The translations under genes were made by a program, and so were the position numbers. This document shows, in pieces, positions 3,267 to 64,000 of a stretch of 64,000 nucleotides of DNA. The notes below the pieces were generated by a model. It ran no database searches. It was given only the letters and a program-made list of their open reading frames with translations, and was not told where the DNA came from. Each line of letters opens with the position of its first letter. The stretch's first letter is position 1. Source of the DNA: Candidatus Syntrophocurvum alkaliphilum (lineage in GTDB: Bacteria; Bacillota; Syntrophomonadia; Syntrophomonadales; Syntrophomonadaceae). The stretch covers positions 186,001-250,000 of the forward strand of contig NZ_CP046457.1 of NCBI RefSeq assembly GCF_009734445.1, written 5' to 3'.

Positions 3267-3721
3267 CTATATTTCTCCCTTGTTTTTAAAAGCTAATTTT
3301 TCATCCCAAGGTTTGTACTGTTTTATATAACAGAATATAATTTAAAATCACACAATTTACAATACTTATAAAGTTTATAGAAAAAATAAATGATTAAATA
3401 AAAGATTGATTCTGCTGAAAAAGTAACTACAAAAAACTTAATGCTGAGCTAACTTGTTTATCTAAGTCCTTAAGTAGCAAGGCGTGGTAATGATCACGGC
3501 TAAGTATAAATAAATTTCACTTTAGATAACAAGTGATAAGCTAAAATGGTGATAAAGACTGATAAATATGTTTACTCAGCCGATTCCATAGTCTAAGTTT
3601 AGCTTTTTGCAGTTAAACCAAGATTTAATTCTATGTTTATATTAGTATATAATGGAGTTAATATTTAGATAATTAAGCACTTATTATATTTTTATTATTA
3701 AACTTAAAGGAGTTTGTTTTA
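3267..3721. other. Intergenic region holding MITE copy A
   Basis: This 455-base gap lies between the divergent LuxR regulator and the serine hydrolase fragment. It holds the regulator's ribosome site, an AT-rich stretch that probably contains promoters for both sides, and the whole MITE copy A (3408-3619). I see no coding frame with a credible start in it. Confidence 0.6.
3408..3619 (+). repeat. MITE copy A (212 bp, 6-bp target duplication)
   Basis: A non-coding element starting GATTCTGCTG and ending AGTTAAACC. Its subterminal arms TGAGCTAACTTGTTTATC (left) and GATAAATATGTTTACTCA (right) are near-complementary. The 6-mer AAGATT is found directly on both sides (3402-3407 and 3620-3625), which is what a target-site duplication looks like. 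Near-identical copies lie at 12453-12679 (inverted) and 63598-63829, with a fragment at 56721-56780. No transposase is present, so it is non-autonomous. Confidence 0.82.
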
Positions 3722-8061: not shown

Positions 8062-8176
8062 GAGTTATTTGTTTTTTAGTATAATATTATATTTCACCTT
8101 TCCCTATTGTACGGTTATTAAACATAATTCAAGAATAATTAAGTAACTCTTAAAGTAGTATTTTAAAGCATAAAAT

Positions 8177-8219
8177 GAGTCAAAAGGAACCGTCCCCTTT
8201 GACTCGTCCCCTTTGACTC
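8177..8219 (+). repeat. REP-like palindrome with partial tandem copy
   Basis: GAGTCAAAAGGAACCGTCCC followed by CTTTGACTC (8177-8205), then a second partial copy CGTCCCCTTTGACTC (8205-8219). The GAGTCAAA and TTTGACTC arms pair. The same arm version recurs at 15699, 37788, 39635 and 40867. Confidence 0.85.
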
Positions 8220-8265
8220 TTACTCCTTAACTTGAACTTCTACACTCCCCATAATGGCTCTTGTA

Positions 8266-8968: not shown

Positions 8969-8998
8969 GATTTCTAGATTGCTCCTTTCTGCACATTT

Positions 8999-9062
8999 TC
9001 TACTAAGTACGTAGTTGATAGTAACTGCGAAGGAAAGTGTACCCTGAATTCAGTTGATTTTT
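8999..9062 (+). repeat. TACGTAGTTGATAG repeat, copy 1
   Basis: TCTACTAAGTACGTAGTTGA followed by TAGTAACTGCGAAGGAAAGT. It lies 15-78 bases before the start at 9077. Related copies are at 11884-11910 and 16036-16061, with an inverted degenerate copy at 8266-8330. Confidence 0.75.
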
Positions 9063-11857: not shown

Positions 11858-11883
11858 TAGATTATTTAAGTTATAATTCATAT

Positions 11884-11910
11884 CATCTACTAAGTACGTA
11901 GTTGATAGTA
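11884..11910 (+). repeat. TACGTAGTTGATAG repeat, copy 2
   Basis: CATCTACTAAGTACGTAGTT continuing GATAGTA, 33 bases before the start at 11943. The core is identical to copy 1. Confidence 0.75.
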
Positions 11911-11942
11911 AATACGAAGTAGCGAGAAAGGAGATTGTAAAA

Positions 11943-12398: not shown

Positions 12399-12452
12399 AT
12401 CATGTTGTATATCTTAATCATCTTCCGCGCATTTTGATACGATTTCAATAAT

Positions 12453-12679
12453 GATTCCACTGCAAAAAGCTAAACTTAGAGTATGGAATCGGCTGAGCAA
12501 ACATGTTTATCACGCCACTCATCGGTCTTTACCTTCATTTTAGCTTAGCACTTATTATCTAAAATAATTTTTTATTTATACTTAGCCGTGATCTATGCAC
12601 CACGCCTTGCTATTCGGGACTTAGATAAACATGTTTGCTCAGCCTTAAGTTTGTTGTAGTTACTTTTTGCAGCAGAATC
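12453..12679 (-). repeat. MITE copy B (227 bp, 6-bp target duplication)
   Basis: Inverted relative to copies A and D. The ends are GATTCCACTGCAAAAAG and CTTTTTGCAGCAGAATC, which are near-perfect terminal inverted repeats. The perfect 20-base arms GCTGAGCAAACATGTTTATC and its complement lie inside the ends. AATAAT is present directly on both sides (12447-12452 and 12680-12685). Confidence 0.88.
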
Positions 12680-12718
12680 AATAATAAGTTCTCTAAAGTA
12701 TTTTACTATTTCTAACAT
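12593..12718 (-). pseudogene. Possible small gene interrupted by MITE copy B
   Basis: A 41-codon frame starting ATG at 12718 with GGAGG five bases upstream. Residues 1-13 (MLEIVKYFRELII) are host sequence and the rest is MITE-encoded, ending at a TAG inside the element. It looks like the 5' end of a small gene into which the MITE inserted. Upstream in another frame is a leucine/lysine-rich stretch (LLLITKLKKVV), so the locus may already have been decayed. No function is assigned. Confidence 0.3.
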
Positions 12719-15468: not shown

Positions 15469-16016
15469 GGATAACACCCGTGGTAGTTGATGGTGGAGTA
15501 CTTGATATAGCCCTTGTTGCAGAAGAAGAAAGAAGAGGGCCGCCAGTTAATGCAATAACACACTACTAATTTGCGTAATTCATTATGGGAAAACCTGAAG
15601 AAAATGGAATAGAAGAAGTTGACTGGTTGCTAAATCTCCAAACTGGTGAGCTAGAAATTAAATTAGTTAAGGGAATATAGGCTTTAGTTGATAGAAGTGA
15701 GTCAAAAGGAACCGTCCCCTTTGACTCCTTAAAAGTTATTTTACGTCTTATAATTGGTCAAGATTACGAAAAAGCTATTGGATATTTTAAAAATGAAAAC
15801 GCAGACGACCATATACTCTATGAAGGAGAACAAATTGGAGATGAAAGGATCAGAGGGCGAGCATATTTAGATGAATCTAAAGAACACATTGAACAAGTTC
15901 TTTATGTTGATATATATGAAAACCAAAAAGCTAGCATAGTATTGAATTTTAACGAACAAGAAAAGGTAGATGAAATATTCTTATCTAAAGATTTGACTTG
16001 GAGTAGCATGAATTAA
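15469..16016 (+). pseudogene. Decayed gene with in-frame stops and an internal REP
   Basis: One reading frame (codons in phase with 15480) encodes protein-like segments separated by stops. It reads VVVDGGVLDIALVAEEERR up to a TAA at 15567; GKPEENGIEEVDWLLNLQTG, ending at a TAG at 15678; then after the REP at 15699-15727 about 90 codons beginning VILRLIIGQDYEKAIGYFKN and ending FLSKDLTWSSMN (TAA 16014-16016). The composition is normal and acidic, as for a secreted or lipoprotein-type gene of about 180 residues. There is no good start codon with a ribosome site. It is interpreted as a degraded gene whose middle was disrupted by, or next to, a REP insertion. The family is not recognised. Confidence 0.6.
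15699..15727 (+). repeat. REP-like palindrome inside a decayed gene
   Basis: GAGTCAAAAGGAACCGTCCC then CTTTGACTC, identical to the unit at 8177-8205. It is in frame with the gene remnants on either side. Confidence 0.88.
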
Positions 16017-16035
16017 AAGTTGTAATGTTTGCACT

Positions 16036-16061
16036 TCATCTATTAAGTACGTAGTTGATAG
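16036..16061 (+). repeat. TACGTAGTTGATAG repeat, copy 3
   Basis: TCATCTATTAAGTACGTAGT continuing TGATAG, about 80 bases before the antitoxin start, immediately upstream of a promoter-like region. Confidence 0.72.
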
Positions 16062-16072
16062 AAAATGTGACA

Positions 16073-37747: not shown

Positions 37748-37816
37748 GAGCAAGTCAAAAGAAAAGGAACCGTCATGAGTCAAAAGTGAGTCAAAAGGGA
37801 CGGTTCCTTTTGACTC
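37748..37816 (-). repeat. REP-like locus after hisI, one full and one partial unit
   Basis: A full unit GAGTCAAAAGGGACGGTTCC plus TTTTGACTC at 37788-37816. A degenerate copy GTCAAAAGAAAAGGAACCGTC precedes it at 37754-37774 in the opposite sense. It may stabilise or end the pur-his transcript; there is no clear T run. Confidence 0.8.
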
Positions 37817-37895
37817 ACTAAAGTTAATTGTAAGAATATTTTCCAGATGTCGTAGTTATATATAAAGGGGATAAAAACATAAGGGGAGGGCGAAT

Positions 37896-39638: not shown

Positions 39639-39682
39639 GTCAAAGGGGACTGAGTCAAAGGGGACGGTTCTTTTTGACTCAT
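39635..39682 (-). repeat. REP-like locus containing the stop codon of the lipoprotein gene
   Basis: ATGAGTCAAAGGGGAC, then TGAGTCAAAGGGGACGGTTC followed by TTTTTGACTCAT. The TGA stop of the upstream gene is bases 2-4 of the repeat. The left arm is duplicated. Confidence 0.85.
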
Positions 39683-40848: not shown

Positions 40849-40935
40849 CAAGGGCAAAGGGAGTTTTGAGTCAAAGGGGCGAGTCAAAAGGAACCGTCCC
40901 CTTTGACTCAAAACTCCCTTTGCCCTTGAATTTTT
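40849..40935. terminator. 31-bp perfect hairpin terminator with REP in the loop
   Basis: Left arm CAAGGGCAAAGGGAGTTTTG continuing AGTCAAAGGGG (40849-40879). The right arm 40898-40928 is its exact complement, followed by AATTTTT. The loop and inner stem are a REP unit (GAGTCAAAAGGAACCGTCCC and its CTTTGACTC). Confidence 0.85.
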
Positions 40936-56712: not shown

Positions 56713-56720
56713 AATTGCAT

Positions 56721-56780
56721 GATAAACATGTTTGCTCGGCCGATTCCATAGCCTTAGCTTAGCTTTTTGCAGTTAAACCA
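56721..56780 (+). repeat. MITE copy C (60-bp 3' fragment)
   Basis: GATAAACATGTTTGCTCGGC through TTTTGCAGTTAAACC matches the last 60 bases of copies A and D. The left 150 or more bases are missing. It lies between the degV stop and its terminator. Confidence 0.8.
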
Positions 56781-63564: not shown

Positions 63565-63597
63565 AAAAAATGTTCCTTTCTAGAAGAATAAGTAGTT

Positions 63598-63829
63598 GAT
63601 TCTGCTGCAAAAAGTAACTACAAAAAACATAAGACTGAGCAAACATGTTTATCTAAGTTCTTAAGTAGCAAGGTGTGGTGAAATGATCACGTCTAAGTGT
63701 AAATAAAATAAAAATCATTTTAGATAATAAGTGCTAAGCTAAAATGGAGGTAAAGACCGATGAGTGGCGTGATAAACAAGTTAGCTCAGCCGATTCCATA
63801 GTCTAAATTTAGCTTTTCACAGTAAAACC
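63598..63829 (+). repeat. MITE copy D (232 bp, 7-bp target duplication)
   Basis: GATTCTGCTGCAAAAAGTAA through to AGTAAAACC, same orientation as copy A. AGTAGTT lies on both sides (63591-63597 and 63830-63836). The right duplication touches the stop codon of the next minus-strand gene. Confidence 0.86.
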
Positions 63830-63834
63830 AGTAG

Positions 63835-64000
63835 TTACTTTCGTGCATTAACTATAATATAAATACCAAGTACAACGATTATAATAGGCCATAACTTAGC
63901 TAAAGATATATAATAAAAACTGTTTAAAAGAAAAAGAACACCAATAAGAATTAAAGCTATGCCCATAAATTTTGTTGCATTATTATTGGTATCGACATTA
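63835..64000 (-). CDS. Small LiaF-TM/DUF5668-like membrane protein, C-terminal part
   Basis: Reads leftward from beyond the right edge to a TAA at 63835-63837. About 54 residues are visible: FMGIALILIGVLFLLNSFYY and LAKLWPIIIVVLGIYIIVNARK. This two-helix pattern (GxxLILIGxxFLLxN, then LWPxIIIxLGxYLI) is the recurring LiaF-TM/DUF5668 unit, the same kind as the N terminus of the LiaF-like gene to its left. Its stop codon lies in the target duplication of MITE copy D, which therefore inserted at the very end of the gene. Confidence 0.78.
   Translation of the reverse strand, partial: NVDTNNNATKFMGIALILIGVLFLLNSFYYISLAKLWPIIIVVLGIYIIVNARK

Follow-up and report, generated by a model that had tools for sequence, protein, structure and literature searches.

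Three copies of a short, gene-free sequence lie in a 64-kb window (positions 186,001 to 250,000 of the single contig of this 2.36-Mb genome), and they raise the question of what kind of element they are and which enzyme moved them. We conclude, with a probability of roughly 0.9, that they belong to a MITE of ~227 bp (short form ~99 bp) with the ends of a divergent IS1182 subgroup, and that a transposase of this kind moved it in trans.

A repeat family with defined ends and target duplications

The window contains three complete copies and one truncated copy (target duplications are read from the sequence and have no strand):

3402..3407, no strand: left target duplication of copy 1, AAGATT
3408..3619, + strand: MITE copy 1, 212 bp, older subfamily
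3620..3625, no strand: right target duplication of copy 1, AAGATT
12447..12452, no strand: target duplication of copy 2, AATAAT
12453..12679, - strand: MITE copy 2, 227 bp, young subfamily, ends GATTCTGCTGCAAAAAG / GATTCCACTGCAAAAAG
12680..12685, no strand: target duplication of copy 2 on the other side, AATAAT
56720..56779, + strand: truncated fourth copy, right arm only, left half gone
63591..63597, no strand: left target duplication of copy 3, AGTAGTT
63598..63829, + strand: MITE copy 3, 232 bp
63830..63836, no strand: right target duplication of copy 3, AGTAGTT

A preliminary description of this DNA had placed the three complete copies, the second of them inverted, at exactly these coordinates and between these duplicates, and both were confirmed on re-reading. 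It had also given the copies common ends, which are similar but not identical: the right end is GGTTTAACTGCAAAAAG in copy 1 and GGTTTTACTGTGAAAAG in copy 3, and copy 1 has a 1-nt deletion within its left end in addition to an internal deletion. Three other copies in the genome are listed at 100% (a rounded figure) to copy 2.

The preliminary description had proposed counting copies in the genome, where we find about 100. A whole-genome search with the left-end 18-mer (up to 3 mismatches) returned 109 matches, compared to 3 for a reversed control, and the right-arm 23-mer returned 96 compared to 0. From the stretches around these end matches only, 78 two-ended copies were recovered, 57 of them 223-238 bp long and 21 between 64 and 196 bp with a cluster at 98-100 bp. 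The family thus has two size classes, one of ~227 bp and one of ~99 bp in which the arms meet as a palindrome. Full-length copies share a mean pairwise identity of 91%, and 26 of the 57 have a neighbour at 98% or above. No recovered copy contains a transposase, nor was one found in 20 stretches around orphan left ends, which hold short or truncated copies and ordinary genes. Small size (212-238 bp or ~99 bp), terminal inverted repeats that pair, a high copy number with separate target duplications and the lack of a transposase gene identify the element as a MITE, as first described.

Perfect duplications of 6-7 bp flank 44 of the 78 copies (35 of 6 bp, nine of 7 bp), while 1000 re-pairings of flanks among copies gave 3.9 on average and at most 10; 23 copies have no duplication even when one mismatch is allowed. 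The 6-bp duplications read A....T: 33 of the 35 start with A, and all 35 finish with T. These results support the earlier view that the duplications are marks of transposition that define both ends. For three copies (L007, L020 and L087) the two flanks, once joined, can be aligned through the junction with unoccupied copies of another repeat, at 85-92% across 67-71 bp but with just 10-19 bp of this on one side; L007 against L075, for example, gives 91.5% across 71 bp, of which ~10 bp lie to the right. Such unoccupied copies may be taken as approximate empty sites, being a different repeat rather than orthologous loci. Two observations that could have spoken against transposition, flanks belonging to a longer repeat and identical sequences lacking flanking duplicates, were judged not to apply; most flanks are unique, and where a copy lies inside another repeat, the unoccupied members of that repeat may serve as an approximate empty site. 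Six copies (L002, L007, L020, L023, L087 and L103) are embedded in a second repeat, short and AT-rich (AATTAAGAATTCAAAATT...), where they often follow a GGGAAAC hairpin.

The left end of the MITE is GATTCTGCTGCAAAAAGTAACTACA, and the right end, read inward, is GATTCCACTGCAAAAAGCTAAACTTAG in young copies and GGTTTCACTGCGAAAAG in others. Internal inverted arms, GGCTGAGCAAACATGTTTATC / GATAAACATGTTTGCTCAGCC, enclose a middle that is flanked by AAACATGTTT as a direct repeat; most short forms have the arms joined as GGCTGAGCAAACATGTTTGCTCAGCC. The ~99-bp forms may have arisen by a deletion from one AAACATGTTT repeat to the other; the alternative is that the middle was inserted into a palindrome. 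Deletion is favoured because the arms of long copies that look older (for example L058) are non-repeating, TAACTTG/CAAGTTA. By inspection, both arms have clearly changed together in L058 only, and we make no claim of covariation.

Insertion sequences with matching ends in relatives

A degenerate form of the end, GRTTYNNCTGCRAAAAG, was searched with a control in 54 genomes of the same bacterial family. Matches were far above control in several (G034, 167; G073, 152; G020, 91; G017, 67; G005, 55). Within the family and across the phylum there is an insertion sequence of ~1.9 kb with ends GATTCCACTGCAAAAA(C/G), duplications of 6-7 bp and a DDE transposase of 550-570 aa in which the D, D and E residues align. 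Genome G024 has three such elements of 1904 bp, with inverted ends identical at 17 of 17 positions (GATTCCACTGCAAAAAC); two have perfect 6-bp duplications (aagaat and aacctc) and the third one of 5 bp. Their 570-aa transposase matches Pfam DDE_Tnp_1_6 and DUF772 over the cut-off, and its top NCBIfam match is IS1182 (NF033551) at 139.8 bits, below the equivalog cut-off of 270. Six near-identical copies of 1920 bp with ends GATGTCACTGC are present in G020, five with 6-7 bp duplications and one with an imperfect duplication, and their protein is 51% identical to the G024 relative. No recoding is involved in the G020 transposase, since the in-frame TAG codons that were flagged there are upstream of an open frame of 562 aa.

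Among 398 genomes of the phylum, 28 encode a relative of the transposase at E<=1e-40. Within the loci examined, GATTC-type ends occur together with duplications of 6-7 bp at L306, L308-L313 and L319 and without a duplication at L307, L318 and L320; the others have no clear ends or a shorter one. An element in G179, of the same length as the other partner elements and with duplication acctat, has GATTCCACTGCAAAAAG at both ends. The right end of the MITE, GATTCCACTGCAAAAAG, is therefore identical to both ends of the G179 element, and it agrees with the G024 element at 16 of 17 positions. Homology between MITE and insertion sequence is limited to the terminal ~17 bp. G024 and G020 also contain three other groups of IS1182-type elements, all with different ends. 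One of these groups, in G024 (483 aa, L296-L299), sits within GGGACGG/CCGTCCC palindromes.

The preliminary description had left the element without a family and suggested comparing its ends with those of known ones. Because both the ends and the 6-7 bp duplications match those of these insertion sequences, we assign the MITE to a divergent IS1182 subgroup. In the model that we favour, a transposase of this subgroup would have acted in trans, binding the MITE ends and placing the element in A/T-rich targets, where a 6-7 bp staggered cut would leave the A....T duplications. The assignment ties a previously unplaced repeat to an IS1182 subgroup that differs from the palindrome-targeting members and is marked by an end sequence of its own and by target duplications of 6-7 bp.

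The sister genus has these ends on solo MITEs as well: in G020 and G034 they bound solo elements of 120-420 bp, many of which are flanked by duplications of 6-7 bp, and G020 carries such elements together with the insertion sequence. The interiors of those inspected (L222-L251) are unrelated, mostly GC-rich and of variable length. No match to the G024 protein was found in G034, a draft assembly with 167 end matches. The inspected solo elements of both genomes hold many small palindromes (GCATAAATAT arms) in these interiors.

MITEs partnered with IS1182 elements have already been described in Methanosarcina (PMC3852290), and the present family is therefore a known kind of element. In Methanosarcina acetivorans, MITEs of 160 and 169 bp, in 14 and 7 copies, are paired with ISMac2 of the IS1182 family, and their table entries for two repeat lengths are 26/4 and 25/0 (PMC3852290). 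Like these, the present MITE is short and gene-free and has an IS1182-family partner; unlike the archaeal elements, which have far fewer copies, it has ~17-bp ends, 6-7 bp duplications and a partner not found in the host. Among IS1182-family insertion sequences, IS1272 of staphylococci (1.93 kb, 16-bp inverted ends) replaces stem-loops and makes no target duplications (PMC5678879), whereas the partner subgroup inserts into A/T-rich DNA with canonical duplications of 6-7 bp. ISPse1 of Paracoccus shares inverted ends and a duplication with the partner subgroup and differs in its length of 1653 bp and its 4 bp duplication; its inverted ends agree at 16 of 16 positions (PMC3281130).

The mobiliser and the host genome

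The expectation in the preliminary description of a transposase partner elsewhere was borne out in G024, G020 and other genomes of the phylum; in the host, as searched, no such partner was found. Neither NF033551 nor the G024 protein had a match there (0 in each case), and the IS240 (PF13610) and DDE_Tnp_1 models likewise had none. The MITE itself was not detected by DNA similarity in 60 relatives, and the literature on IS1202-type elements gave no lead to the family. An exact 18-mer search in the contigs of 84,980 genomes, from which records of the host or near relatives may be missing, gave 4 matches (~7 are expected by chance in 257 Gb), and viral contigs gave 1. The MITE thus looks stranded in a genome with no IS1182-family match. 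The missing transposase and a 44:16 orientation bias, described below, are the odd features of an otherwise ordinary element. The transposase may have been lost later, or may have acted from a transient plasmid or phage. The family is a clean example of a MITE burst for which no mobiliser was found in the genome, and it allows one to ask whether such bursts follow transient exposure to a transposase.

Could another transposase resident in the host have moved the MITE? There are five rve-type transposase matches there, a mobiliser from IS256, IS110, ISL3, IS200/605, IS66, IS1595 or IS1 would lie outside the types searched in the host (IS1182, IS240, DDE_Tnp_1 and rve), and many copies are recent, as the close neighbours of 26 of the 57 full-length copies indicate. 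However, the five rve loci lack GATTC-type inverted ends, with one imperfect single match near one of them, and we rejected these elements as partners. Since, in addition, IS240 and DDE_Tnp_1 are absent and the ends and duplications fit the IS1182 subgroup, a resident mobiliser seems very unlikely. Ends of the IS6 family read like G-TCTG-TGCAAA, and to the eye GATTCTGCTGCAAAAAG resembles IS6/IS257 ends. We nevertheless give an IS6 origin almost no credence, as this family makes 8-bp duplications (PMC5678879) instead of 6-7 bp, the host has no IS240-type transposase (PF13610), and the MITE ends match IS1182-subgroup elements directly.

Genomic position, orientation and folding

Only 3 of the 78 copies overlap an ORF of at least 80 aa by more than 30 bp. 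Between tandem genes, called by a simple longest-ORF heuristic, the element, read left end first, is oriented with transcription in 44 cases and against it in 16 (binomial p 4e-4; post hoc test). In convergent or divergent gaps it follows replication in 6 of 17, with no direction bias. A full copy folds as a hairpin, with -80.3 kcal/mol for the sense RNA (z -8.25) and -64.3 for the antisense (z -6.08).

The rarity of ORF overlaps, the 44:16 bias along transcription but not replication and the strong folding of both strands could indicate that the MITE is now mainly a functional intergenic element, such as an RNA hairpin or processing site, whose copies are kept by selection. We consider this unlikely. 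Any MITE would be expected to lie between genes and to fold strongly, and the bias, which depends on heuristic gene calls and a post hoc test, is most simply read as the purging of harmful antisense insertions. Moreover, copy 2 contains no promoter-like or terminator-like site, and the window has no Rfam match. A functional role does not compete with the MITE origin. It is rather improbable, in our judgement, that the whole scenario holds, in which selection keeps a family of ~100 copies, its transposase since lost or always borrowed, and orients it as a transcribed hairpin between cistrons.

Two other repeats recur in the window. A short-palindrome family of the GAGTCAAAAGGAACCGTCCCCTTTGACTC type is found at 8173-8221, 15695-15743, 37784-37832, 39643-39682, 40849-40928 and other positions, and a 41-nt repeat of the CTACTAAGTACGTAGTTGATAGTAA type, unrelated to the MITE, has three copies at 8992-9032, 11879-11919 and 16032-16072.
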